Shown here: positions 1-34,270 of the stretch, in pieces | Layout of the letters: each line of letters starts with the position of its first letter | Numbering within the stretch: position 1 is the stretch's first letter | Notes under the pieces: model-generated | Told to the model about the DNA's origin: nothing | Databases searched by the model: none | The model's input: only the letters and a program-made list of their open reading frames with translations | Assembly: GCA_030593885.1 (NCBI GenBank) | Contig: JAUVGH010000020.1 | Location: forward strand, 1 to 34,270 | Direction of reading: 5' to 3' | DNA: 34,270 bases | Source: Methanomassiliicoccales archaeon | GTDB taxonomy: Archaea; Thermoplasmatota; Thermoplasmata; RBG-16-68-12; SOIM01 | Made by a program: the position numbers and the translations under genes

Positions 1-871
1 CAGGATAGAGAGATGAGGCTTTGCATACATCTGGATTCGTTATCAATACGATTGGGTCAATCATTGCCACCAAGTCGATTCTATGCCCTAAACCATCCTC
101 TGCAACGTAAGCTCTAACCTTGCACTGATTTACATCATTCAAAAAAATCTTTGAAGCGGGTTCTGTCGCCTTGTATGTTTCCCAGACAATACTGAACACA
201 GTCTTCTCCTTTAGGCCAAGATAATCACCTATCTGTGACACTTTGGGAGTTTTCCCACTAATCGTCAGCTCTTCAAACAGGCGAGAGATTCTTTCGGAAC
301 TAATATTGCCCGCTACCATCAACTCCAAAAGGGGAAAATCAGTGTTCATGTTCGATTTCAATCCTTCAAGAAATGATATAAAATGCTCTCGAAAATACGT
401 CTGTTGTGCCGAATATGTCTTGAAGCACCTGAACGAACGAATCCTAATCTTCTTTGAGGGGAAGGTTTGGTGTAGCTGCTTCTTAGCCTTCGTATTGATG
501 AGGACCGCGCACACAGTCACGGATTTGGGATTGTGCCTGAAGATCATCCTCAGGATAGAAGTCATTTTGCTTCCGCTGCGCACTGAGTCGTCGAAAACCA
601 GCACCCTCATACCTTCAATTCTCTTCGCCGATATCACAATCTCGTCATCTCGAATGGACTGGAACTTCTTGAGATTAGGGTATTCATCTTCGAAGCACGA
701 GAAAATCGTGTTCCCCTTCCTAGTGACCTTCACGACAGTGTCGACCCTGCCAAAGCGCTTTCTGACGAGTTTTCGAAGAAACCTGTCAATCTCTCTTTTG
801 GTTTGTACATAAGTTGAGTGGTTGATGATCTGCTCCAAAGAAGTAGGAAGGTCGTTCGTAACTTCTGCCAT
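1..871 (-). CDS. Phosphoribosyltransferase-like protein, truncated by the left edge
   Basis: Reverse-strand reading from ATG (CAT at 869-871) is open to the window edge: MAEVTNDLPTSLEQIINHSTYVQTKREIDRFLRKLVRKRFGRVDTVVKV...RIEGMRVLVFDDSVRSGSKMTSILRMIF. VLVFDDSVRSGSK resembles the PRPP-binding loop of type I PRTases. A TTTAAATA box lies at about 911-920. The gene is absent from the ORF track because it has no stop in the window. Confidence 0.7.
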   Translation of the reverse strand, partial: MAEVTNDLPTSLEQIINHSTYVQTKREIDRFLRKLVRKRFGRVDTVVKVTRKGNTIFSCFEDEYPNLKKFQSIRDDEIVISAKRIEGMRVLVFDDSVRSGSKMTSILRMIFRHNPKSVTVCAVLINTKAKKQLHQTFPSKKIRIRSFRCFKTYSAQQTYFREHFISFLEGLKSNMNTDFPLLELMVAGNISSERISRLFEELTISGKTPKVSQIGDYLGLKEKTVFSIVWETYKATEPASKIFLNDVNQCKVRAYVAEDGLGHRIDLVAMIDPIVLITNPDVCKASSLYP

Positions 872-969
872 GGTTCGGTTCACTTGTTTTGTACCAGATG
901 AAGGATGGAACCTATTTAAATTTCTCGCACATTATTCAGAACTTGCTCGGGATGTCCAACAAATCAGTC

Positions 970-1323
970 ACTGATCTAGCAGCATGTATCTTCCGCTCCC
1001 AACAAACCTCAGAACCCCATTATCGTTCAGAACCTGCAACTGCTACCTGATCTTCGGCCTGATATGCCTGTTCTTCGGATGAAGCTCTCCCAGCTCCTCC
1101 TCGAAGTCGTATATCTCCTGAAGCGAGAATTCCCTCTTCCCCAACTTCCTCACACACCTGAGAACATCCGAAGTCCAACCCCTGGACCTCACGGTGGACT
1201 CCCTGAGGAAGGAGAACCTCCGCCATTCATCGCGAACCGCACTTGGGCTCCTGACGCTCCCGTCCTTGATGATCTCGATCCATCCGTCCGGCGGGAGTCG
1301 GTCGAGGAGTATGTTGTGGCCGA
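970..1323 (-). pseudogene. Remnant A of the DpnI-like gene (C-terminal half)
   Basis: Reads ...GHNILLDRLPPDGWIEIIKDGSVRSPSAVRDEWRRFSFLRESTVRSRGWTSDVLRCVRKLGKREFSLQEIYDFEEELGELHPKNRHIRPKIR[TAG]QLQVL. By eye about 90% nucleotide identity to about 21773-22070; in-frame TAG and missing N-terminal half. Confidence 0.85.
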
Positions 1324-1433
1324 TCTGCGATTCGTACGTCTCAGAGAAACTATTTATTGATGCATCCTCATTCTGCCGAAGTCGATTGAGACTTGATCGT
1401 CTTGGAGGGTCATGGACTATCGACAAAGGGGGA

Positions 1434-2393
1434 GTGGAGGTGCCTATATCAGAACCAAGAGTCCTTGTCACAGGTGGAGCTGGATTCATCGGGTCCAGTC
1501 TCGTGAAGGAGTTACAGTTCGACGGTTTTTCGCCTATCGTTTATGACTTCAAAGATGCGGAGACATCCAGAAGAATCGCAGACGATGCGGATGTCGTATG
1601 TGGAGATGTTCGAGACTTTGAAAGACTTCGCAGAATCGTGCAGTCAGTCAACGGGATTATCCATCTCGCCGCCGTCTCGCGAGTTGTCTGGGGATACGAA
1701 CGACCTCGCGAATGTGTGGACACCAATATTCAAGGAACTGCCAACGTCCTAGAGGCAGCTAGAAAGTCACCGAAGAAACCCTGGGTCATCTATGGTAGCA
1801 GTAGAGAAGTCTACGGAGAACCAGAGGAACTCCCCGTACGTGAATCAGCTCCCAAAAAGGTCTTGAACGTCTATGGAATGACAAAGATCGCAGGGGAGAA
1901 TCTGTGTCGCCAATATCATCGAAACTACGGCCTGAATGTTGGAATCCTCCGTTTCTCCAATGTCTACGGTGGAGTGCATGATCACCTGGACCGGGTAGTC
2001 CCGGAGTTCATAATCCGATCTTTAATGGGTGAAGAAATAACGATACACGGAGGGAGACAGATCTTCGATTTCACGCATATTTCAGACACACTGGAGGGCA
2101 TCATGAGGATGATGGTAACTCTTGATTCAAACAACGGACCATACATTGATGACTTCCACATACTCACAGGAAAGCCCACTTCACTGCAACAGCTGGTCGA
2201 GATTATCCAGAAAGCTACTCGGAACCGTTCTGAGATCATATATGGACCAGCGAGAGACTATGATGTGGAAAGGTTCTACGGTGATCCAACGAAAGCAAGC
2301 AACCTGCTGGGCTACACCGCGAGGACAAGCATCGAAGAAGGCATTGCAGGATACGTTCCGCTTCTCAAGGAGCACTTGGAGGAGGTGCTGTGA
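1434..2393 (+). CDS. NAD-dependent epimerase/dehydratase (extended SDR)
   Basis: RVLVTGGAGFIGSSLVKEL Rossmann glycine motif; YGMTKIAGE = YxxxK active site. Track ORF starts at 1194, but a GTG at 1434 fits the domain start. Confidence 0.9.
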   Translation: MEVPISEPRVLVTGGAGFIGSSLVKELQFDGFSPIVYDFKDAETSRRIADDADVVCGDVRDFERLRRIVQSVNGIIHLAAVSRVVWGYERPRECVDTNIQGTANVLEAARKSPKKPWVIYGSSREVYGEPEELPVRESAPKKVLNVYGMTKIAGENLCRQYHRNYGLNVGILRFSNVYGGVHDHLDRVVPEFIIRSLMGEEITIHGGRQIFDFTHISDTLEGIMRMMVTLDSNNGPYIDDFHILTGKPTSLQQLVEIIQKATRNRSEIIYGPARDYDVERFYGDPTKASNLLGYTARTSIEEGIAGYVPLLKEHLEEVL

Positions 2394-2394
2394 A

Positions 2395-3597
2395 ATGAGG
2401 ATAGCACAGGTCATCCACGGTTTTCCTCCAGAATACATGGCAGGATCAGAGGTCTACACTCACGCTTTGGTCTCCGAGCTGGCAAAGCGACATGATCTGT
2501 CCGTCTTCACACGAATTGAGAACCCATACAAGGAGAAATATGAAACAGAGATTCAGAAGAGGAACGGGTTCGATGTCTTCAGGATCAACAACACTTCGAG
2601 GCACCCTAGGTTCAAGAGCAGGTACAGGGACAAAGCCATCGAATCGGAATTCGAGAATTTCTTGGATCTGTACGATCCTGAGATTATGCATTTCGGGCAT
2701 CTGAACCACCTGTCAACTGCCATGGTTCTCCAAGCGAAAGAACGTGGAATTCCCGTCATCTTCACGCTCCACGACTTCTGGCTGATCTGCCAACGCGGTC
2801 AGTTTTTGATGGGGGACTTCAGCATCTGCGATGGCCAGGATGACAGAAAATGCGCCAGGTGTCTTTCTAAATGGGTTCCCAAGAAGGAAGCCTTGGCCGA
2901 GATAGGCAAAAGGATGAGGTATCTCAAGAAAGTCATGTCGGGTGTCGATTTGTACATTGCCCCATCACGCTTCCTAATGGACAAGTTCATCGAGTTCGGG
3001 GTGCCTGAGAATAGAATCATCTACTCAGACTATGGTTTCGATACAAGTCGTTTCAATGGGTTCAAGAGGAGCAGGTCGTCGAAGGTGAGGTTCGGGTACA
3101 TAGGCACCCATATCCGCTCGAAAGGGGTCAACATCCTCATGGATGCATTCAACCAAATCAATAGTAACGATGTGGAGCTGAAGATCTATGGCAGGCGAAT
3201 GAAGGACACCGTGTACCTGGAGTCTATGATTCAACGTGAAGGCGTGAAGTTCATGGGCGGCTACGACAATCAGGATGTTGCCAAGGTCCTAGCTGGATTG
3301 GACGCAATAGTTGTACCCTCGATTTGGTACGAGAATTCACCCCTCGTAATCCATGAAGCTTTCCTGGCAAGAATACCCGTGATCGCTTCCAACAAGGGCG
3401 GAATGGCCGAATACATTCACCACATGGATAACGGTCTTCTTTTTGATCTTGGCAACTCCAGAGACCTTGCAGACAAAATCCTGATGTTGGCAGAGAATCG
3501 AGAACTAATCGAGGAATTGGGAGGAAACGCTCCCCCTGTCAAGTCCATAGAAAAGCATGCTGAGGAATTAGTGGAAATCTATAATCAGTTCCTGTGA
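2395..3597 (+). CDS. Glycosyltransferase family 4-like
   Basis: MRIAQVIHGFPPEYMAGSEVYTHALVSELAKRHDLSVFTR N-terminus; VRFGYIGTHIRSKGVNILMDAF and VVPSIWYENSPLVIHEAFLARIPVIASNKGGMAEYI donor-binding region. Starts 1 bp after the epimerase stop. Confidence 0.9.
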   Translation: MRIAQVIHGFPPEYMAGSEVYTHALVSELAKRHDLSVFTRIENPYKEKYETEIQKRNGFDVFRINNTSRHPRFKSRYRDKAIESEFENFLDLYDPEIMHFGHLNHLSTAMVLQAKERGIPVIFTLHDFWLICQRGQFLMGDFSICDGQDDRKCARCLSKWVPKKEALAEIGKRMRYLKKVMSGVDLYIAPSRFLMDKFIEFGVPENRIIYSDYGFDTSRFNGFKRSRSSKVRFGYIGTHIRSKGVNILMDAFNQINSNDVELKIYGRRMKDTVYLESMIQREGVKFMGGYDNQDVAKVLAGLDAIVVPSIWYENSPLVIHEAFLARIPVIASNKGGMAEYIHHMDNGLLFDLGNSRDLADKILMLAENRELIEELGGNAPPVKSIEKHAEELVEIYNQFL

Positions 3598-13954: not shown

Positions 13955-14309
13955 GTTTCAGTATAGTTCGATTTGGCATTCAAGCACCACTCCCCTCATT
14001 CTCGAAATAGAAACGAATGATATAAGTCTTTCCACCAGATTTTGGGATTGCCATTAGCATCAATCCCTCTTGCTTCCGGTAAATGGTCAATCACTCAGAA
14101 TTCTCCTACATATTGAGCGAGGTGCGATTAAGACAAGTGCGGTGAGATGAATGAGAAAACCAGACCACCTATTGAGAATGCCTGAGAGGGTGATGGAACA
14201 TCACAGTGAGACTTGCCTGAGATATGACTCGATTTCTTCAACGTTAATCTCAAATCTGAGTGAGAGGGCAGAGCTTTGACGGAAGATGAGAAAGAGAGAA
14301 TAGAATACA

Positions 14310-14535
14310 AGGGGATAGTGAACAGGTCGAGGACCTTCCACGCGTCCCTGGTGTAACGCAGAAAGAAGAAGCTTGGGGCCACGTCGTGCTCGATGGCGTC
14401 CTTCAAGGGTCCGTAGGCGGAGTCTGCGAGCTTCCTTCCGAACTTGGTGCTCTTGCTCTTGAGCTGGTATCTCTCTTCGCATGAGTCGCACTGGAAGTCG
14501 TAGACCTCGGTGCCCGGGGTGGTGGGGTCGAGGTG
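14310..14535 (-). pseudogene. Remnant C of the DpnI-like gene (internal segment)
   Basis: By eye about 94% nucleotide identity to about 22136-22362; encodes VYDFQCDSCEERYQLKSKSTKFGRKLADSAYGPLKDAIEHDVAPSFFFLRYTRDAWKVLDLFTIP without the two ends. Confidence 0.9.
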
Positions 14536-14578
14536 TGGGAACCAATTCGGAGTTGGTGCTGGGAAAGGTGAATCGCGA

Positions 14579-21712: not shown

Positions 21713-22483
21713 CTAATCTCTTACCATATATCTCCCTCTTCCGAGAAACCTGAGGACTTCCTTGTCCCTCAAAACCTGCAACTGCTGCCTGATCTTCGGC
21801 CTGATATGCCTGTTCCTCGGATGAAGCTCCCTCAGCTCCTCCTCGAAGCCATACATCTCTTGAAGCGAGAACTCGCTCTTCCCCAGCTTCCTCACACACG
21901 TCAGAACATCCGACGTCCAACCCCTGGACCTCACCGTGGACTCTCTGAGGAAGGAGAACCTCCGCCACTCATCGCGAACCGCCCCTGGGCTCCTGATGCT
22001 CCCGTCCTTGATGATCTCGATCCATCCGTCCGGCGGGAGGCGATCCAGGAGTATGTTGCAGCCTATCCATCCGCTCCTTCTGGCGGTCTTCCTGAGGGGT
22101 CTCCTCTCCTCGAGGGCATTGATTGTGAAGAAGTGCGAGGGGATGGTGAACAGGTCGAGGACCTTCCATGCGTCCCTGGTGTAGCGCAGGAAGAAGAAGC
22201 TCGGGGCCACGTCGTGCTCGATGGCGTCCTTCAAGGGTCCGTAGGCGGAATCTGTGAGCTTCCTTCCGAACTTGGTGCTCTTGGCCTTGAGCTGGTATCT
22301 TTCTTCGCATGAGTCGCATTGGAAGTCGTAGACCTTGGTGCCCGGGGTGGTGGGGTCGAGGTGGGTGGAGTCGCATGAGGGGCAGTACATGTTGTCCTGG
22401 AGCCATTGTTCGGTGATGACGCGGGCGATCTGGGTGGGGGATTTGTAGGCAGAACCTTTGTGAACTAGCAGGTCTGTCATCAT
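21713..22483 (-). CDS. dpnI-like: DpnI-family (type IIM, Gm6ATC-directed) restriction endonuclease homologue
   Basis: YKSPTQIARVITEQWLQDNMYCPSC...DFQCDSCEERYQLKAKS...GPLKDAIEHDVAPSFFFLRYTRDAWKVLDLFTIPSHFFT...RRPLRKTARRSGWIGCNILLDRLPPDGWI...IRQQLQVLRDKEVLRFLGRGRY aligns from memory to DpnI over nuclease and C-terminal wHTH domains. Confidence 0.93.
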   Translation of the reverse strand: MMTDLLVHKGSAYKSPTQIARVITEQWLQDNMYCPSCDSTHLDPTTPGTKVYDFQCDSCEERYQLKAKSTKFGRKLTDSAYGPLKDAIEHDVAPSFFFLRYTRDAWKVLDLFTIPSHFFTINALEERRPLRKTARRSGWIGCNILLDRLPPDGWIEIIKDGSIRSPGAVRDEWRRFSFLRESTVRSRGWTSDVLTCVRKLGKSEFSLQEMYGFEEELRELHPRNRHIRPKIRQQLQVLRDKEVLRFLGRGRYMVRD

Positions 22484-24511: not shown

Positions 24512-25435
24512 CTAACTCTCTGCTTGTGTGTACTCAGTCAAAACCTGCTGATAGGGATCAGTGACAAACACACTGGCCTTCTTTCTGCCCACCCTGCTTC
24601 TTCGGGGAACATTTGTAACCAAGATTTCATGAATCTTCCCCCGTCCAGAAGCGTCACAACTGATAAACCTATGAGCTTCAACCCTCTTGATTTCAAACCC
24701 CGAAGCCTTATCATAGAGCTCTCTCATGGGTTGGGTCCAAGAGTTGCTCAAGACGAAAAGCACCCTCTTCTTGTGAAGCCCTAGACAAAGATCTCTGAGC
24801 TTCTTCTGCTCATCAAAACCAAAACCCTGTGACGAGTAAGCTGTGAAATCTGCAGTTTCTGATACAGGTTGGTACGGTGGGTCAAGATACACGAGATCTC
24901 CTGCCCTTGCTTCCTTCCGGACATACTCAAAGTCCCCAACTTTGATTTCAAGATTTCTCAAAACCTCGCTGGCTTTCCTGAGTCTTTCTTCTGGGACGAT
25001 CGTTGGATTCTGATATTTCCCAAATGGTACGTTGAAGGCACCTTTCTTGTTTACCCTATACAAGCCGTTGTAAGCCGTTTTGTTCAGGAAAAGCAGAAGA
25101 CTTGCTTCTCTCACTTTGTCCAATTCCTCTCCTTCTAGAATGGATTTGTTGAACTCCCTTCGACACTCATAGTAGTAGTCCTTCTCGCTCACGTGTCCCT
25201 TGGCATCCTCAATAAGCTCGTCCACATGATCTCGTACAACTTCGTAAAATCTCATAAGCCTAGGATTGATGTCGTTTATCGTGCCGGAGATAGGTTCCAT
25301 CCAGAATGCGACTGCGCCGCCGCCAAAGAATGGTTCGTGAAATCTCCTCTCTCTAAAGTCCAGAGGCAAGAATGATATGATCTCTGGAAGAAGCTCCCGT
25401 TTTCCCCCAGCCCATTTCAAGATAGGTTCAGCCAT
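24512..25435 (-). CDS. dam-like: D12-class adenine-N6 DNA methyltransferase, DpnM/Dam-like
   Basis: PILKWAGGKRELLPEI (motif X), FHEPFFGGGAVAFW (motif I), NKTAYNGLYRVNKKGAFNVPFGKY, GDLVYLDPPYQPVSETADFTAYSSQGF (motif IV DPPY). Closely resembles DpnM as recalled. Confidence 0.93.
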   Translation of the reverse strand: MAEPILKWAGGKRELLPEIISFLPLDFRERRFHEPFFGGGAVAFWMEPISGTINDINPRLMRFYEVVRDHVDELIEDAKGHVSEKDYYYECRREFNKSILEGEELDKVREASLLLFLNKTAYNGLYRVNKKGAFNVPFGKYQNPTIVPEERLRKASEVLRNLEIKVGDFEYVRKEARAGDLVYLDPPYQPVSETADFTAYSSQGFGFDEQKKLRDLCLGLHKKRVLFVLSNSWTQPMRELYDKASGFEIKRVEAHRFISCDASGRGKIHEILVTNVPRRSRVGRKKASVFVTDPYQQVLTEYTQAES

Positions 25436-25482
25436 TTGACCCTCTTCCAACTAATCATTATTGGCATACTTAATAGATTCTT

Positions 25483-25540: not shown

Positions 25541-25762
25541 ATGAAACAGGAGAAGGATACGTCAACAGGAAGGTTCGAGGAATCTTTTCATGACGACGTT
25601 TTCTTGAAGGCTTTGACAGAGGATAGTGTCCTCTCCACAAAGGAGGTCGCGAAAGAAGTGGGATGCTCGTACAATCTCGCTTACAGAAGACTTAGGGAGT
25701 TGGCAGAAGAGGGCAGACTGGAGGGGAAGATCATCGGGAACAGCTACGCCTGGTGGATTTGA
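25541..25762 (+). CDS. Small winged-HTH regulator
   Basis: DDVFLKALTEDSVLSTKEVAKEVGCSYNLAYRRLRELAEEGRLEGKIIGNSYAWWI. Confidence 0.8.
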   Translation: MKQEKDTSTGRFEESFHDDVFLKALTEDSVLSTKEVAKEVGCSYNLAYRRLRELAEEGRLEGKIIGNSYAWWI

Positions 25763-25784
25763 GTTTCTGTGGAGACTGAGAAGC

Positions 25785-26855
25785 ATGCCATCTTCTGGAT
25801 TGTTTGTGACCCTCTATGACGAAGAGACGCTCAATCTATACCTGAGGGAAGGAATCTATGGATTCCTGATGCCCCCAGTTGATGATGAAGTCCCTCAGCG
25901 AAGTCGTCACTATCAGGCACTCGCAGATTATGCATGTGCAAGAGAAGGCGCTCATGTCTTCTTCTTCCGTAAGAGAATGATAGTCTATGGGGGACAAGTA
26001 ACAGGTTCGAACGAAGTCGGGTCTTTCTACCTGAATGGCCAATTCAGTCCGCTTGGCAGGGCCGCAAATGCCGACATCTACTGGGATGAAGGTAGGAGGG
26101 AGAGATATATCCAAAAGGAAAAACCAGGAATATTCGAAGTTCCCGAAGTTGGCATACGGTGTCAACCTTATTTGCTGAGGTTCGAAGATCTAGAGGGACT
26201 AAGGGGCAGCGCAATCCTCTCTGACCAGCTTTACTTCCAACTGGGTAAATATCCATATCCACTGCCTTCCAACTCCATCTCCAATATGTCTTTCTGTACG
26301 CTTACTCCAGGTGAAGTTGAAGCCGCGATTACACTATTCAGAGAAGAACCTAAGAAGCATCTGTCGGGAGAATCCTCAGAAATCATCTCCCTTGCGAGTG
26401 ATCCAATTCTGTTCGATCCGAGCTTTGATGTGGGCAGTCTCAGCGAAGCTTTCGAAGACTCACTTTTTGTCAATGAAGCCCACATGGAGGCCTCGGTCAT
26501 TGCCAACCCAAATCTCCTACCTGCTGAGGTGAGGCCGAAAGGGGCTACCATATGCAGACAAGTTCCTGTTTCCCCATTCAAGCCTGCACAGATGGATAGG
26601 GCAGATATCTGCTATTTCACTGAAGACAAGATCCAAAATGGTACAGTCCCAAACACGATAATTGAATTGAAAGTGAAACCCGCAGGAAAACCGGCAGTTG
26701 AGCAAATTCGAAGGTATTTGGACTGGCTACATCTAGTTCTGAAGTCAGAGGACGCCGAGAGGGTAAAGGTCTACTTATTGGCGCCTTCTTTCACCCGGAC
26801 TGCGAGAGTTCCAATAGAGTATTCTGACCAAGTGAGATTCATCAGTCTGGTGTGA
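25785..26855 (+). CDS. Putative PD-(D/E)xK nuclease (C-terminal NucS/DUF91-like core)
   Basis: ATG at 25785 in the track ORF frame; C-terminus RADICYFTEDKIQNGTVPNTIIELKVKPAGKPAVEQIRRYLDWL fits D...(I)ELK nuclease core with following helix. Confidence 0.65.
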   Translation: MPSSGLFVTLYDEETLNLYLREGIYGFLMPPVDDEVPQRSRHYQALADYACAREGAHVFFFRKRMIVYGGQVTGSNEVGSFYLNGQFSPLGRAANADIYWDEGRRERYIQKEKPGIFEVPEVGIRCQPYLLRFEDLEGLRGSAILSDQLYFQLGKYPYPLPSNSISNMSFCTLTPGEVEAAITLFREEPKKHLSGESSEIISLASDPILFDPSFDVGSLSEAFEDSLFVNEAHMEASVIANPNLLPAEVRPKGATICRQVPVSPFKPAQMDRADICYFTEDKIQNGTVPNTIIELKVKPAGKPAVEQIRRYLDWLHLVLKSEDAERVKVYLLAPSFTRTARVPIEYSDQVRFISLV

Positions 26856-27844
26856 AGCGTTATATTGGCAACCAGCTTTACCTTGGGGGAGGTGTAACCA
26901 TCGAATTCAAACCAATGAAACCAGTGAAGCACGAAGACTATCTGAAGTTTCTTAAGAGACATAAGGAGGTTAAGATAGAGAAGTCAGAAGTGAAACTCGA
27001 AGGTGAGTGGGAAATCAAGAAACTCTCCCCACCCGAGGACTACGAGATAGAACGATTCAACGCCTGGAGCTTTCCAGATAGAGGAGATTGGGCCACTCAC
27101 AGTGGCAACTACAGGGGGAATTGGTCCCCATATATACCGCGGAATCTGATTCTTCGTTACACAGAAGAAGGAGATACGGTTCTTGATCAGATGATGGGGA
27201 GCGGAACGACTCTAGTAGAATGCAAGCTTCTCAATAGGAAGGCAATAGGTGTGGATGTAAACCCGAATGCCGTGATGGTAGCAAGAGATAGACTGAGCTT
27301 CAATCCAAACCCTCCCGACCAACAACTCGATGACCCTGGAATACTCACATATGAAGGAGATGCACGGTTCCTGAACGAGATTGAGGAAGAGAGCATGGAT
27401 TTGGTGGCAACCCACCCACCTTATGCGGACATCGTCTCATATTCCAAACAGAGCCCTGTAGAGGGAGATCTATCAAGAACTCATAACGTCAATGAGTATG
27501 TTGATGAGATTCACCAAGTCGCGTTTGAGTGCCTACGAGTTCTGAAGCCCGGGAAACACTGTGGGATACTAATTGGTGACACCAGGCGGAAGAAACACCA
27601 TGTTCCGATAGCGATTAGAGTCATGCAGACATTTCTAGATGCTGGTTTTGTGCTGAAAGAGGATATCATCAAACATCAGTGGAAAACGAAGTCGGGGAGG
27701 GAAAAGTGGAGAGGCAAGAATTACGATTTTCTCCTATTGGCTTACGAACATCTATACATCTTCAGAAAGCCCCAAAAGGAAGAGAAAGCAACTGAGTATC
27801 GAGATAGCACGAAGTGGTGGAACCAGTCTAGTTCACTCTTTTGA
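26852..27844 (+). CDS. DNA methyltransferase (N4-cytosine / N6-adenine type)
   Basis: GDTVLDQMMGSGTTLVECKLLNRKAIGVDVNPNAV (SAM motif) and DLVATHPPYADIVSYS (catalytic PPY). Overlaps the nuclease stop (GTGTGA). Confidence 0.85.
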   Translation: MKRYIGNQLYLGGGVTIEFKPMKPVKHEDYLKFLKRHKEVKIEKSEVKLEGEWEIKKLSPPEDYEIERFNAWSFPDRGDWATHSGNYRGNWSPYIPRNLILRYTEEGDTVLDQMMGSGTTLVECKLLNRKAIGVDVNPNAVMVARDRLSFNPNPPDQQLDDPGILTYEGDARFLNEIEEESMDLVATHPPYADIVSYSKQSPVEGDLSRTHNVNEYVDEIHQVAFECLRVLKPGKHCGILIGDTRRKKHHVPIAIRVMQTFLDAGFVLKEDIIKHQWKTKSGREKWRGKNYDFLLLAYEHLYIFRKPQKEEKATEYRDSTKWWNQSSSLF

Positions 27845-29074
27845 CGGATAGGTGATGCGCCCAGGGAACCAATAGTCAATTCCTCGGTCACGCAGATACT
27901 TCTCCTTTTCTGCTCTGGTTCTCATCTTCTTAGTTGCTCTCGTGACGTTCTTGCCGAACCTCTTCCTCTCGAAGTCTTTCGAGTAGAACGGAAAACCATG
28001 CCTCACACAGATATTCTGTCGTCTGACGTTCCTCCGGTATTGCTTGATGAGAGCATCTGACCATCCGCTTTCTTCGTGGATGTGGTATTCATCATTTGTC
28101 TGTCCTTTCTTTCTTGGATTATACCTGTCATAAGTCTGATTCAGAGGCCGATATCTACAATCTGACATCTGCACTCCCCATCTCCAACATTTGATCCTCT
28201 TCTTCTCCATTTCTTCGAATGGGATATCCCAATTATAGAGCACGAAGACGCTTATGTCCTTGCGCCCATAGTCAGCTCTTGTAAGAAGATCAATCTGCCT
28301 CTTCATCTTCGGAAATCTGTCAAAACCCCAATCCCACGCAATCCTTGGGTATCTGAACCCTGCTTGCCTGATCAGTCTTGCCAGATGAGGCTTTTCAACA
28401 AGTATTCGTCCGTCGAAGCCACTCTGAGATTCGCACCACAGAATCTCTCTGTTTTTCTTGAGTTCGACAAGCTCCTCCAGAATTCCTTCTATGTGAGGAT
28501 TCGCGAGCAGATTGTTGTCGTAGAACACGATCTTTCTACGCTTGATCTTCTCCTTCACGGTCATTGTAGGACTGAACTCTGGTTCGATCCTCCAAGTGCC
28601 ACAGAAGTCACAGCTTCGAACGCAGCCACGTGAGGCGTGCATGATCTGATAGTCGACCGGATGAGGATTCTCCTCGATCAGAGAGTAGTCTGGAAAGCAA
28701 TTCTCCGCATACTTAAGGAGGCCTTTGTGCCTTCTGACTCCATATTCCCGTGCTTTCTTGAGGAATTCACTATCTTCATAGAAGAGGGAGACGTAGATTC
28801 CTCCTACATGGATAGTTGCATCCGGGAATCTGTCCCGATAGAACTTAACACTCTCCCAGAAACTGTCACTCCAATATGTGAAGAGAGATGTGATGAAGAT
28901 CTTGTCTGGTATGAAACTAATGTCCTCATTGCCGCGAACTAACTCCACTTCATTTGACTGAGATTGTTTGCGATAGTAAGCACCGATTTTCAGAAGAGGC
29001 AGTGGCAAAAAGTCCTTGTGGTTCTTGCTCTTTGGAGGGACAGGGAATTCGGGCTCAACTAGCAACAGCTTCAA
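27833..29074 (-). CDS. B12-type radical SAM enzyme
   Basis: MHASRGCVRSCDFCGTW = CxxxCxxC; N-terminal MKLLLVEPEFPVPPKSKNHKDFLPLPLLKIGAYYRKQ typical of B12-binding-domain radical SAM proteins. 4-bp overlap with the upstream gene. Confidence 0.88.
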   Translation of the reverse strand: MKLLLVEPEFPVPPKSKNHKDFLPLPLLKIGAYYRKQSQSNEVELVRGNEDISFIPDKIFITSLFTYWSDSFWESVKFYRDRFPDATIHVGGIYVSLFYEDSEFLKKAREYGVRRHKGLLKYAENCFPDYSLIEENPHPVDYQIMHASRGCVRSCDFCGTWRIEPEFSPTMTVKEKIKRRKIVFYDNNLLANPHIEGILEELVELKKNREILWCESQSGFDGRILVEKPHLARLIRQAGFRYPRIAWDWGFDRFPKMKRQIDLLTRADYGRKDISVFVLYNWDIPFEEMEKKRIKCWRWGVQMSDCRYRPLNQTYDRYNPRKKGQTNDEYHIHEESGWSDALIKQYRRNVRRQNICVRHGFPFYSKDFERKRFGKNVTRATKKMRTRAEKEKYLRDRGIDYWFPGRITYPSKE

Positions 29075-31659
29075 GCATCCTCACCGTCCTCGGGTTCTCG
29101 CCTGAAAATACTCTCAATCATATAAAGGCCGTCCTTGATCTTCTCGTACAGCAAAAACTCCTCATAGCTCAACTTTGAGGTGTCCAATTCTCCTTTCAGG
29201 ATTTCCTTTGCCATCCTTCTGATTTTTCTACCTGTTGTCTGATGAATCACCCTCAAGCTTTGGACCTCTCGATCAATGATATCATAATCTTCGATAATCT
29301 GTTCATCTCCCATGATCATACCCAGGATTAGAAGGTCCTGGGAGTCTTCCGGAGCAAGAACATTGCCTTTCGCCCAGTTCATGACCGTCATTCGATGTCT
29401 CCGACCGCCCTTGGCAACATATGATTCGTACACCTCTGCGAATGTCAGATCGTCCAACTCAATGTACTCAGCTAGCCTCTTCTTCCAAGATTCAACTAGG
29501 ATCGTGTCCACATCTTCTTCAAGATCCAGAATATCAATAATCAGCCCGAGAATCGTCTTCCGTTCATCGTTGTCCAGGATTAGGATAGTATATCCCTTCC
29601 TGAAGTTTCTAGGCGTGCCTTCAAAGATCTTGCCTTCCGATTGTTCAAGATAGAGATAGGTCTTCTCGGCTGGCAATGTCTTGGTTATGGTGAGTTCGGA
29701 CTTGACCTTCCTGAGTGTTGTTTCATAATATGTGGCAAACCTTACATCCACGATTTCGTCCTCATCGGCCTCGGCAATTCGCATCTCAATGTGCTCAATC
29801 GCCTCTTCGTGTTCCCTGTATTCTCTATGATCTACCGCGGTAATTTCCTTGAGTCTTTCGGCAAGTGGTTTCGGATCCACAAGAACTTCTCCCAATTGGC
29901 CGTCGGGGATTTCTGATTGGCGTTTGGCTTCGAAAGCCTCAAGGCGTTCCCAGTGGTCCTTGAAAATGCCATCCTTCGGTACATCAAGAAAATCATAGAC
30001 TTCACCCAGATATATCATTGAGTCCTTTTCTTGTTCCAGAGTGTAGGTGCTGAACAAATCAATCTGATCTTCTACAAGGTCATGATTCGAACCACTGTAG
30101 GCAAGAATCAGAATTCTTTCGTAGGGCTGAAGCAGTTCGGAGAAGTACTTCAAGCGCAATGGGCCAGGCAAAACTAATGTTATGCCGGACTTGGGGCGCA
30201 GGGACTTATTGATTTGACCTATGGTCTTAACATCAAAGCCATCATTTGCTCCTATCTTATCCAGTTCCCTTAACACGACATTGCGTTCGAAAGGAGAATA
30301 TGTAGCCAGCACGATCGATCCACCATTGGTCAGAATCGATGGCTCACCTTTGAGCAATTCCATAATCCTGAAGTCCTTGGCCACTCTTGAATATGTATTG
30401 TCTTCCCCAAACCTCATACATTCCTTCAATTCCAAGTACAGGCAATGTATCTCAGAAATCAAACGACTCAATAGTGTTCTGTTCTCCTTGTCTTCGTCAT
30501 CCAGGCGAGATTTCAACATTCCGAGAAGTTGTTGGACGGAGTAATGTCTCCACTTGATATGATTGTCGCCGTAGGATTCTTTATACTTCCCAGGATTGAC
30601 TGCCATACTATGAAACCTATATAACAGGCCAAGCACTCTGAAGAAGAGCTTCTTGTTTAACAGTTTGTCTTCATCAATCTGCCTGGCAAGGGATTTTGCA
30701 GTTGCGAAGTGATAGTCAATGTTCCCAGATACAAGCAAGGGTTCCAGAATCTCAATGTCTGTGATCCCCTCGTAGAAATGCTCACGATCGGCATCGTATT
30801 TCTCTAAGAATGGCGTCTCTGATGGAGTTATTTTCCGGGTCTCAAAGACAGTATCCATCGCATCTCTAATCTCTTTGTTAGACCTCAACAGACCAAAGCC
30901 GAATGGTATGACAAGTGCATTAATCTCGTCCTTCACACTTCGAATGAATCTTGACTCAGGATTGGAGAAATGGAGAAGCAAAGATGCACCCTTCTCACGC
31001 AAAGGTGATGTCCACTCAAGGAATTTTCTGAATGAGTATTCTGAATGTATGAATCGATCGACATTCTCAAAAATGACTAACCCAAGGTCGATTTCGATAT
31101 CCTGGTCGTCAACCTTCTCATCGTCCAGTATGATCTTCTCGATGGTACTGATAATCCTATTTTGTTTCTCGTCACAGTACAGCAATATCTTGGGCCCAAG
31201 AGTTTCCAGGAAATTCTTCTTCTGCTGATCTATGTATTTCTTCCTGAGAGATGCGACAGCCCGAGGGATGTAGACCTTCGCTTCAACTCGATCATGATAC
31301 ATGATACCCATTGGGACATAATAGAAGAGATACTCACCGTCTTTGTTTAGAAGATGATAATTCCGATTGTGATACTTCACAGGACTGTCGACAGTGCGTG
31401 TTCCTCCTTTCTGTGTGAAAACAATCACGGATTTCTCCCTGAGAGTTGCGTAGATATAGGATAGTATGGGAATCGGCCTTAGAACAGAGTCTGGAATAGT
31501 AACAATGAGGTCCTTCGTGCCCAGGGAATTGGCGAAAGTGTTGAAAATGAACTTCGTCACCGGGCCGAATCTCCCAGACAATCTGACATTATTGGGAGCA
31601 CCCTTTCTCTTGGGGTTGTAAGTACAGATTGGATGAGTGTGCTCATACCAGGCCTTCAT
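29071..31659 (-). CDS. Large uncharacterised protein, possible DrmE-like / degenerate helicase-like
   Basis: 862 aa; helicase-like strands without Walker A (RPIPILSYIYATLREKSVIVFTQ; DLGLVIFENVDRFIHS; IVLATYSPFERNVVLRELDKIG; ERILILAYSG). DrmE assignment rests mainly on context. Overlaps neighbours by 4 bp on both sides. Confidence 0.5.
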   Translation of the reverse strand: MKAWYEHTHPICTYNPKRKGAPNNVRLSGRFGPVTKFIFNTFANSLGTKDLIVTIPDSVLRPIPILSYIYATLREKSVIVFTQKGGTRTVDSPVKYHNRNYHLLNKDGEYLFYYVPMGIMYHDRVEAKVYIPRAVASLRKKYIDQQKKNFLETLGPKILLYCDEKQNRIISTIEKIILDDEKVDDQDIEIDLGLVIFENVDRFIHSEYSFRKFLEWTSPLREKGASLLLHFSNPESRFIRSVKDEINALVIPFGFGLLRSNKEIRDAMDTVFETRKITPSETPFLEKYDADREHFYEGITDIEILEPLLVSGNIDYHFATAKSLARQIDEDKLLNKKLFFRVLGLLYRFHSMAVNPGKYKESYGDNHIKWRHYSVQQLLGMLKSRLDDEDKENRTLLSRLISEIHCLYLELKECMRFGEDNTYSRVAKDFRIMELLKGEPSILTNGGSIVLATYSPFERNVVLRELDKIGANDGFDVKTIGQINKSLRPKSGITLVLPGPLRLKYFSELLQPYERILILAYSGSNHDLVEDQIDLFSTYTLEQEKDSMIYLGEVYDFLDVPKDGIFKDHWERLEAFEAKRQSEIPDGQLGEVLVDPKPLAERLKEITAVDHREYREHEEAIEHIEMRIAEADEDEIVDVRFATYYETTLRKVKSELTITKTLPAEKTYLYLEQSEGKIFEGTPRNFRKGYTILILDNDERKTILGLIIDILDLEEDVDTILVESWKKRLAEYIELDDLTFAEVYESYVAKGGRRHRMTVMNWAKGNVLAPEDSQDLLILGMIMGDEQIIEDYDIIDREVQSLRVIHQTTGRKIRRMAKEILKGELDTSKLSYEEFLLYEKIKDGLYMIESIFRREPEDGEDA

Positions 31660-32456
31660 CGAAAGTCCTCACCATCAAATCGAACATCCGAGGAGACGGA
31701 GAAGAGCATATCGAAGATTAGACCAAGATTGCTGGCTGTTTCCCCTTCAATGATAACGCCAAGTTCGAAATTCTTCTCGAATGAATTGAGGCGAAACTCA
31801 CCACTTCCCACATAGGCGTATCTATTGTCGCAAACAATGAATTTCGCGTGAGTGCTACTCTTGACGAATTTTTCCGATTGATAGTGATAATTCCTTATTG
31901 AAACAGGAGCTTTTTTATTCCTAAACTCTTCATATATTTCCTTCAACTCGGTATATCTGCTGTTGTAGTCCCCTCTGTCAATCTGTCTCGAGACAATCTT
32001 GACATCTACACCTCTCTCAGCCTTTGAAATCAGTGTTGGCAAGAAGGTATTGAACCCTTCCTTCTGAAGGAAGGGCGAGCAGATGAATATGCTCCTCTCT
32101 GCATTCTCTATCAACCTCATGAACTCTTCCCTCATGGAATAATAAGGAACCCTCTGCGCCTCCAAGTCGGTCTTGAGTCCAAACAGATTGAAAGGAGGTA
32201 GACTTATTGCTAGTCGCGGATATTCGTCAGTTCCTTCACCTTCTGATAGCCGGAGATCAGGCTTCTCGAGCAACTGAATCTGGACGCTATCAAACCTCTT
32301 GCTAGGCTTGACTATCACCACAGATTCGCGCGATAAAAGGTAAAAGATGCTCTCCCGAATTGCCTCCTTCTTATGTCCATCCTTTGCGACTCTTTTTGTG
32401 AGGGCGCCAACTTCTATCCCAGGCTGATCAACAAGTGCATCCATCAGAGATTTCAT
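31656..32456 (-). CDS. drmC-like: Phospholipase D-like nuclease with N-terminal wHTH (DrmC-like)
   Basis: SSTHAKFIVCDNRYAYVGSGEFRLNSFEKNFELGV = HxK(x4)D(x6)G HKD motif; SIFICSPFLQKEGFNTFLPTLISKAERGVDVKIVSR preceding strands. Confidence 0.8.
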   Translation of the reverse strand: MKSLMDALVDQPGIEVGALTKRVAKDGHKKEAIRESIFYLLSRESVVIVKPSKRFDSVQIQLLEKPDLRLSEGEGTDEYPRLAISLPPFNLFGLKTDLEAQRVPYYSMREEFMRLIENAERSIFICSPFLQKEGFNTFLPTLISKAERGVDVKIVSRQIDRGDYNSRYTELKEIYEEFRNKKAPVSIRNYHYQSEKFVKSSTHAKFIVCDNRYAYVGSGEFRLNSFEKNFELGVIIEGETASNLGLIFDMLFSVSSDVRFDGEDFR

Positions 32457-32499
32457 AACAGAGTAGTGCTTCTTATCTACGACAAGCGAAACCGTGTTA

Positions 32500-34270
32500 T
32501 CACCAATAGCCGACTTGATATCTCTCCTTGCCCATCACCACATCTCTGTCCAGATATTCATTGAAAACCGAGCATGCGTATTCAGGCAAATATAGACATG
32601 AGAAGCATGCTCCTTTCTCAAAGATGCAGGTAGGATCAAAGGTGCATTCTCGAATCTCGATTTCCACATCTCTTAGCCATTCATTCAAGGAGTTTTCAAA
32701 CACATATTCGAATCCGCCAATATTGATATTAGACGTAGAGAAGATCATAAATGCCGCTGGATTAACGAAAATCAATTCACCACAAGAGTCGCTGTCAAGC
32801 CCAGTATGGAGAGAGGACCGTCTCATCAATGTGTGGGACAAGGTGTGCAACAGAGTCATGAGTGCCTCATAAGGTGGGGATTCCTTTTCGATTCCCAAAA
32901 GGATTTCCTTTGCCTGTTCTCCATCAACCCCCTTTTCTGGTAAGAACCCAGTATCCATTAACCATCTACATGCCCGCAGTCGGTCGACTGTGAAGAGGAT
33001 GCCTTCAGTTTCAAACGGATATGAATATGCTACTAGTTTGTCCTTCTTCCTACTGTCTTTCCATATGGGATCGAAATGGGGCACAAAGCCCGACTCATAG
33101 AACTTATTCACACCGTTGATGACACCTATGCAGGACGATATCAAGCCAACATCAGAGATGTAACTAATGTCTTCGATGCCAAGTTTCCTCTTGACCGCTT
33201 TGTATGTTTCAAGCTTAATCTTTCTTCGAGTTGTGTCTGAAATGGTTTTCAAGTAACTACCATACGACAAACAGGTGGTTTCTCCATCAGAAAAGGTGCC
33301 TTTAATCGCAAGATAATCATTGAGATTCTCCAGATCAGCGTCTGGATAGTTATTCTTCAGGCCATTAACAACTTGCTCTATTGAGTCAGCGAAGAATCTC
33401 CTTTTCCATTTCTGCTCCTTCTCAGTCTCTGACAGTCCGGAGAATGAAGGGTCGGTTGAGAACAAAGCCTCCTTAAGATTTTGGTCTTTGCACGCTCTGA
33501 TATAGCTCTCGATCTTTGACAATGTTACACTTGAATCAATCTTCTCCGAGATCTCAGAAAACTTGCCAAGATGCAGGGCCAATAGCAAATACTCAAGGTC
33601 TTCGAGCTGGATTGCCTCAGTTGGAGGGATATCGATGGAAGTCACGACAATCGGAGTAAAGACCCCTCCCTCTTTCACTGTTAGAGGTTTGAATTTCTCA
33701 GGCTTCGCGTTGCATATTTTCACATTGTCTTCTTCATGACTGCAGGCGAATCGGAAAATGTCTATGGGATCCTTCTTGCACTGGACACACTGAACCTTCC
33801 ACGTCAGTAAGGAATCCTTCTCCTTCCTTAGCAGTCTTATCCTATGGTTCTTACAGTAGTAATGTAGGGGCTTGACATTGCCACATTGCTTGCAGTATAG
33901 AAGGATTGATATCTGTTCATATTCTCCATCGCAGGGAGATGCTTTACACTTCTTCGAATCAAACGTGCGCCATTCACTATCACGTGGATACCTGAAATCG
34001 CCACATTTCTTGCACACAAAAGTCCTGGGGTAAACAGTGTGCTCGCCCGTATAGTCATCTTCTTCTCCAATCATGCTCGACACCAAACGGTACCTAATTA
34101 TCTTGAAGTCCTTTTTTCGTGATAACGACAGTGCATCATGTGTCATATCGTAATGGTCAATCCGTTGGTTGTAGTTTGACATCACGATCTTGAATAGTCT
34201 ATCCCTCAACCTTTCTTCATTCCTTATCTTAAGATTTCTGTCATTCTTGTCTGGAAGTATTTTCTTGGTT
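32500..34270 (-). CDS. drmB-like: DUF1998 zinc-ribbon protein (DrmB-like), probably truncated by the right edge
   Basis: CKKCGDFRYPR, LYCKQCGNVKPLHYYC, VQCVQCKKD zinc ribbons; C-terminal LHTLSHTLMRRSSLHTGLDSDSCGELIF...GGFEYVFENSLNEWLRD...ECTFDPTCIFEKGACFSCLYLPEYACSVFNEYLDR is DUF1998-like. Frame is open to the edge past the TTG at 34209. Confidence 0.82.
   Translation of the reverse strand, partial: TKKILPDKNDRNLKIRNEERLRDRLFKIVMSNYNQRIDHYDMTHDALSLSRKKDFKIIRYRLVSSMIGEEDDYTGEHTVYPRTFVCKKCGDFRYPRDSEWRTFDSKKCKASPCDGEYEQISILLYCKQCGNVKPLHYYCKNHRIRLLRKEKDSLLTWKVQCVQCKKDPIDIFRFACSHEEDNVKICNAKPEKFKPLTVKEGGVFTPIVVTSIDIPPTEAIQLEDLEYLLLALHLGKFSEISEKIDSSVTLSKIESYIRACKDQNLKEALFSTDPSFSGLSETEKEQKWKRRFFADSIEQVVNGLKNNYPDADLENLNDYLAIKGTFSDGETTCLSYGSYLKTISDTTRRKIKLETYKAVKRKLGIEDISYISDVGLISSCIGVINGVNKFYESGFVPHFDPIWKDSRKKDKLVAYSYPFETEGILFTVDRLRACRWLMDTGFLPEKGVDGEQAKEILLGIEKESPPYEALMTLLHTLSHTLMRRSSLHTGLDSDSCGELIFVNPAAFMIFSTSNINIGGFEYVFENSLNEWLRDVEIEIRECTFDPTCIFEKGACFSCLYLPEYACSVFNEYLDRDVVMGKERYQVGYW

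Follow-up and report, generated by a model that had tools for sequence, protein, structure and literature searches.

A radical SAM enzyme coupled to DISARM-like and other restriction modules, a candidate DNA self-marking enzyme

We describe a radical SAM enzyme encoded at the end of a DISARM-like operon in a Methanomassiliicoccales archaeon (assembly GCA_030593885.1; 2.14 Mb, 91 contigs, 86% complete). The window analysed is a complete contig of 34,270 bases (JAUVGH010000020.1, here C85), and the operon on its minus strand encodes, in order, DrmB-like, DrmC-like and DrmE-like proteins and the radical SAM enzyme (Table 1). The coupling of this enzyme family to restriction modules is well supported. 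The self-marks known from restriction systems are methylation, phosphorothioation and 7-deazaguanine, and the radical SAM enzyme is probably a DNA self-marking enzyme that takes the place of the methylase or the phosphorothioation enzyme in several such modules. A wider proposal is held more tentatively and falls a little short of an even chance: that these loci form a new restriction-modification class with a radical, probably B12-dependent DNA mark, in which one mobile enzyme serves at least four unrelated modules and also protects phage genomes.

Scans for the enzyme detected 46 loci in 84,980 species genomes, plus separate matches in Thermoplasmatota. Methanobrevibacter curvatus DSM 11111 (L087) is one of the carriers. 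The order DrmA, DrmB, DrmC, DrmE and radical SAM enzyme was found in Thermoplasmatota (L060), Lokiarchaeota (L078) and Helarchaeota (L092), and the Helarchaeota operon has a 4-bp overlap between drmE and the radical SAM gene comparable to that of the window, there ATGA. Two methanogen-lineage loci, L051 (ANME-1) and L068, encode DrmA, DrmB, DrmE and the radical SAM enzyme. DrmC is gone from both while the radical SAM gene has been retained, and in L068 a deletion fuses DrmE to it. A second lineage (L057, L065 and L090) consists of DrmA, DrmB, DrmC, a protein of about 1050 amino acids (aa) and the radical SAM enzyme; profile comparison with hhalign identified the 1050-aa protein as a distant DrmE (99.0%, E 7.7e-18, 328 columns). 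Close DrmE homologues were present in three of 293 Thermoplasmatota genomes, with a radical SAM gene behind each, one of them decayed.

The window could not be extended to the right, since the contig ends at 34270. A DrmA-type helicase open reading frame (ORF) of 1117 aa was found on another contig of the same assembly (C69, bases 21-3374, minus strand; score 279.7 bits, cut-off 950). Its 3′ end lies toward the contig end, in an orientation that fits joining to C85. The last bases of C69 could open the DrmB reading frame, and comparison with L060 indicates that some 30-40 DrmB codons are missing between the two contigs. An overlap between C69 and C85 was looked for and not found, so we infer the join. 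A preliminary description of this DNA had named two findings that would speak against it: a radical SAM family not conserved beside DUF1998 and PLD genes elsewhere, or core genes orphaned for want of an upstream helicase. Neither is the case. The family adjoins DrmA, DrmB, DrmC and DrmE in other genomes, and a DrmA-like helicase is encoded in the same assembly at a fitting contig end. All four minus-strand ORFs of that description were recovered where it had placed them, as were the 4-bp overlaps by which it joined the last three genes.

The DrmB-like protein matched the PADLOC DrmB model best over residues 469-586, in its C-terminal part, and was 58-60% identical to DrmB of L038/L060 and L044. 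It is divergent, since NCBIfam DrmB_fam scored far below its cut-off and the Pfam MZB/DUF1998 model had no match across the whole genome assembly, this protein included. Support for the earlier label DUF1998/DrmB comes from PADLOC. The DrmC-like nuclease was 49-52% identical to DrmC of L038 and L044. It scored 59.1 bits with NCBIfam DISARM_DrmC_I (below the cut-off of 133) and 55 bits with PADLOC DrmC; MkoB, from another system, scored higher (69.8). The 862-aa protein, which the preliminary description had rightly placed in the operon but left unnamed, can be named from its Pfam DrmE_C match above cut-off. The full-length NCBIfam model DrmE_fam gave 69.9 bits against a cut-off of 80, and 89.7 bits for the ANME-1 relative. 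Judged by these profile matches it is a divergent DrmE family member. Its structure model, of only modest confidence (predicted local distance difference test, pLDDT, 68), resembles SF2 helicases and was kept out of the main evidence.

Machineries other than DISARM are accompanied by the same enzyme family. It adjoins PbeA (HKD nuclease plus helicase), an ORF of about 67 aa (the size of PbeB), PbeC (CxC-type DndD-like ATPase) and PbeD (TIGR04062-like), wholly or partly, in 14 loci, with carriers that include Methanobrevibacter, Phycisphaerae, Chloroflexota, Stahlbacteria and Nanoarchaeota. In five loci the neighbour is either a GHKL ATPase akin to the BbrUII-type restriction enzymes or the partner protein of that ATPase, and in another five ParB-like or DGQHR/DndB genes adjoin the enzyme. 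In 4/4 plasmids examined, distant relatives (25-27% identity) were flanked by a DGQHR gene on one side and a GHKL-like ATP-binding gene on the other. The upstream neighbour was a restriction or DNA-modification gene in nearly all loci showing one, the clear exception being a phage contig.

The 41 radical SAM sequences placed in a maximum-likelihood tree did not separate by partner. Clades with 100/100 support mixed Pbe-linked and DISARM-linked enzymes (L062 with L090; L071 with L065 and L067; L057 with L061 and L066), and the swapped pairs were 60-68% identical. Forcing the DISARM-linked enzymes into one clade against the Pbe-linked ones was rejected by the approximately unbiased test (p-AU 7.5e-8). 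Partners have been exchanged repeatedly between DISARM-like and Pbe modules, in a manner that resembles the combination of Dnd modification genes with different restriction modules (PMC10853773).

Several of these loci have features of their own. A fifteenth Pbe-type locus (L066:9649-11266) has only an N-terminal remnant of PbeA (54 aa, 50% identity), directly followed by a radical SAM gene whose own N-terminus is shortened; it is a Pbe locus stripped of its restriction genes, with most of the radical SAM gene retained. In a WOR-3 bacterium (L050:470-7666) a DpnII-like nuclease, a DGQHR/DndB-HEPN fusion, the radical SAM enzyme, ParB and a 498-aa protein are encoded in a row. Four alphaproteobacterial plasmids (L146, L159, L160 and L161) share a conserved triplet of a DGQHR protein, a radical SAM protein or unannotated equivalent, and a GHKL-like protein; genes for ParB, PIN-like and helicase proteins frequently accompany it. 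The triplet may be a further defence system. The haloarchaeal PbeABCD loci L148:16246-18412 (393+330 aa) and L152:13691-15810 (~377+329 aa) encode a protein pair behind PbeD, in the usual slot of the radical SAM enzyme, which is possibly another partner pair.

Viral contigs yielded two loci, one only 23% identical. On a tailed-phage contig from IMG/VR (L096) a radical SAM gene, 51% identical, lies between a 227-aa ORF and the terminase large subunit (phrog_38, E 1.7e-93), after which glycosyltransferases follow; no restriction genes were seen around it on this contig. Weaker relatives were found in Marinitoga camini virus 1 and in phage vir520, there near a DNA methyltransferase. These contexts bear on the possibility that the enzyme is a maturase of defence proteins (DrmA/B/E, PbeC/D) and not a DNA modifier. 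Many radical SAM enzymes are maturases, and the gene is nearly always co-directional with defence genes and near them. We nevertheless consider maturation unlikely, because the DrmABCE, PbeABCD, GHKL+c8, ParB+c16 and DGQHR modules have no protein in common and no such partner is encoded near the phage copy. DNA would be the only substrate common to all of these modules.

The CxxxCxxC motif noticed in the preliminary description (C151, C155 and C158) is present and invariant in 45/45 family members, as is C306, and C296 is conserved in 42/45. Of the 45, Pfam recognised a Radical_SAM domain in 36 members and a B12-binding domain in 31. The B12-binding match was not obtained for the window enzyme itself; its predicted fold agrees with the B12 type. 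The AlphaFold (AF2) model (pLDDT 92.9) has an N-terminal Rossmann domain and a radical SAM barrel, and the nearest solved structures detected by Foldseek were the cobalamin-dependent radical SAM methylases TokK and CysS. By this model the enzyme's fold most resembles that of cobalamin-type radical SAM methylases. A search of the family profile against PDB sequences gave no significant match, and a search of a viral-structure library gave generic radical SAM matches only. Net charge is positive in all family members (+3 to +42), which would be compatible with nucleic acid binding but is no proof of it. An MTAB model and tRNA methylthiotransferase structures were also among the best Foldseek hits, and such a MiaB-type-like fold could mean that the enzyme acts on tRNA or other RNA and serves defence islands as a back-up or counter-measure. 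This is less probable still than protein maturation: Pfam found neither the MiaB-type N-terminal domain nor the TRAM domain in the family, and the family's gene neighbours belong to DNA restriction modules or encode DGQHR proteins of the Dnd/Dpd systems, which modify DNA.

Known marker genes are scarce beside the enzyme. Counting DNA methyltransferases, DndC or PAPS-type genes at most 5 kb from PbeC, we found a marker gene in 1/13 loci with the radical SAM enzyme versus 11/15 loci that lack it (Fisher p 6e-4). One plasmid of the latter group has a DNA methyltransferase directly behind PbeD, the position taken by the radical SAM gene in other loci; other Pbe loci of this group have a methyltransferase directly before PbeA, or Dnd genes. 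Among DISARM-like loci with the radical SAM enzyme, none of eight had a methyltransferase at most 5 kb from DrmA. The window operon has no DrmMI or DrmMII methyltransferase, and the methyltransferases around it lie on the opposite strand or belong to a separate unit. Defence islands collect unrelated genes, and convergent N4/N6 and Dam-type methyltransferases lie at most 5 kb away in the window, so the enzyme might be a passenger without functional tie while adjacent or distant methyltransferases do the marking. We rate this marginally below an action on RNA. A functional tie is favoured by the overlapping or nearly abutting reading frames, by the constant terminal place of the gene across many phyla, by its retention where DrmC was lost and by the lack of methyltransferases near DrmA. 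That the enzyme makes an antiviral small molecule, an alternative raised in the preliminary description and for which the viperin-group radical SAM enzymes with their antiviral nucleotides are a precedent, is very improbable, mainly since a phage carries a copy and a marking enzyme would benefit a virus, which an antiviral product of its host would hardly do, and also because the fold and domain plan are of B12 type, viperin was absent among the top Foldseek hits listed and from significant PDB sequence matches, and the enzyme is constantly accompanied by nucleases, helicases and DNA-scanning ATPases.

Several findings speak for self-marking of DNA, which the preliminary description had also suggested: unrelated modules use the enzyme and have repeatedly exchanged it, a methylase or phosphorothioation gene is mostly missing beside it, and a phage carries it alone. 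The enzyme would chemically modify the cell's own DNA at a base carbon, the sugar or the backbone, by methyl transfer or another radical-based group insertion. A helicase complex of DrmAB with DrmE would sense the missing mark and act only on unmarked DNA, and DrmC would be a dispensable nuclease of this complex. The radical SAM enzyme would then be an interchangeable marking module of DISARM-like, PbeABCD, GHKL and ParB/DGQHR systems. In Serratia DISARM, the DrmAB ATPase is lowered by methylated DNA (PMC9142583). The two decay cases, L066 having kept the radical SAM gene and L044 having lost it, loosely fit the asymmetry of restriction and modification.

Several points weigh against DNA self-marking. 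That DNA is the substrate is something we infer. Genome G080 (L044, contig C205) keeps DrmB, DrmC and DrmE with a decayed radical SAM gene; its DrmB is truncated at the contig end, and DrmA was searched for in this genome and not found, the contig being cut there. The window enzyme matches only Radical_SAM in Pfam, with a score below cut-off. The marker-gene sets were hand-picked, several methyltransferase references came from loci lacking the radical SAM enzyme, and the statistics ignore relatedness. Half of the DISARM loci lacking the enzyme (4/8) also have no linked methyltransferase (Fisher p 0.08 versus 0/8), so the DISARM control is weak and proves nothing alone. The DNA methyltransferase next door in the window, on the opposite strand, could serve the system. 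Finally, the C69-C85 join is based on orientation and gene content only.

Table 1. Features of the window, and the decayed radical SAM gene of locus L044
Feature	Position	Strand	Evidence or remark
DrmB-like (DUF1998-type)	32500..34269	-	5′ end off contig, N-terminus missing; PADLOC DrmB 87.9 bits
DrmC-like PLD nuclease	31656..32456	-	Pfam PLDc_2 61.8 bits
DrmE-like protein, 862 aa	29071..31659	-	Pfam DrmE_C 49.4 bits, cut-off 27
Radical SAM enzyme, N-terminal B12-binding-type Rossmann domain	27833..29074	-	family motif and predicted fold
CxxxCxxC radical SAM motif codons (residues 151-158)	28601..28624	-	sequence
ATGA stop/start overlap drmC/drmE	31656..31659	-	sequence
TTGA stop/start overlap drmE/radical SAM gene	29071..29074	-	sequence; requires TTG start for radical SAM gene
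N4/N6 DNA methyltransferase	26852..27844	+	Pfam N6_N4_Mtase 99.3 bits; PADLOC MTase_II 244 bits
NucS-C-like nuclease-domain protein	25626..26855	+	NucS_C 20.3 bits (below cut-off 24); NCBIfam NucS 28 bits (far below cut-off)
Decayed radical SAM gene of L044	L044:5140-5790		multiple frames and stop codons; one Cys of the motif lost; directly behind intact DrmC/E

Within the operon, the DrmB and DrmC genes are separated by 43 bp. The N4/N6 methyltransferase gene is convergent with the radical SAM gene, their 3′ ends overlapping by 12 bp, and is itself overlapped by 4 bp by the gene of the NucS-C-like nuclease. The latter is likely the restriction partner of the methyltransferase, and the two are probably a restriction-modification unit separate from the DISARM-like operon. 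Elsewhere in the window we identified an intact DpnI-family gene (21713-22483, minus strand; 194.5 bits against a cut-off of 26.7), two decayed DpnI-family copies (14201-14545 and 1043-1489, both minus strand) and, 2 kb from the intact gene, a Dam-family methyltransferase (24512-25450, minus strand; 285.8 bits). DpnI cleaves methylated GATC, so the DpnI-family and Dam-family genes would be expected to be incompatible if GATC is the target of both enzymes. In genome G267 (contig C10) a DrmABCE-like operon without the radical SAM enzyme (L142) is preceded, 1 bp before drmA, by a PAPS-reductase-type PP-loop protein with a 4Fe-4S motif (L142:6707-8290). It matches a common archaeal PRK13795-type protein, and we do not claim it as a phosphorothioation enzyme.

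The DISARM-like operon is a new variant and, if its product on DNA is as proposed, would represent a new kind of restriction marker. The enzyme could add groups at chemically inert positions, which would be a new DNA modification, and it would explain self/non-self discrimination in DISARM-like and PbeABCD systems that have no methylase or Dnd genes. It offers a one-gene, testable entry point. We found no published link between radical SAM enzymes and DISARM or Pbe in the open-licence literature searched, subscription papers and preprints being outside that scope.

With the 862-aa protein recognised as a DrmE, the operon comes closest, among described systems, to class 2 DISARM (drmE, drmA, drmB, drmC and drmMII), minus the methylase. 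DrmA, DrmB, DrmC and DrmE homologues stand in one operon in relatives; in this assembly the DrmA-like gene is on another contig. Unlike class 2 DISARM, the window operon has no drmMII and ends instead with the radical SAM gene. DrmE follows DrmC here, but precedes DrmA in annotated haloarchaeal plasmids, and the window DrmB and DrmC and the C69 DrmA all score below curated cut-offs. PbeABCD, the system with a CxC ABC ATPase and DndE (PMC6459918, PMC10853773), is similar in its helicase and HKD/PLD nuclease modules. Relatives of the window enzyme fill its modification slot, whereas in the Pbe systems described so far this role falls to phosphorothioation or DNA methylases and not to radical SAM enzymes (PMC10853773); PbeA, the CxC ATPase PbeC and PbeD are absent from the window. 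Dnd and Dpd systems (phosphorothioation and 7-deazaguanine, with the DGQHR proteins DndB and DpdB) are similar in that relatives of the enzyme adjoin DGQHR/DndB-family genes, but at those loci neither a DndC-type nor a DpdA-type modification gene was recognised. TokK and CysS share with the radical SAM enzyme the predicted plan of domains; the sequences are only 12-14% identical, and the window enzyme is shorter and has a basic C-terminal extension, with the conserved C306 ahead of it.

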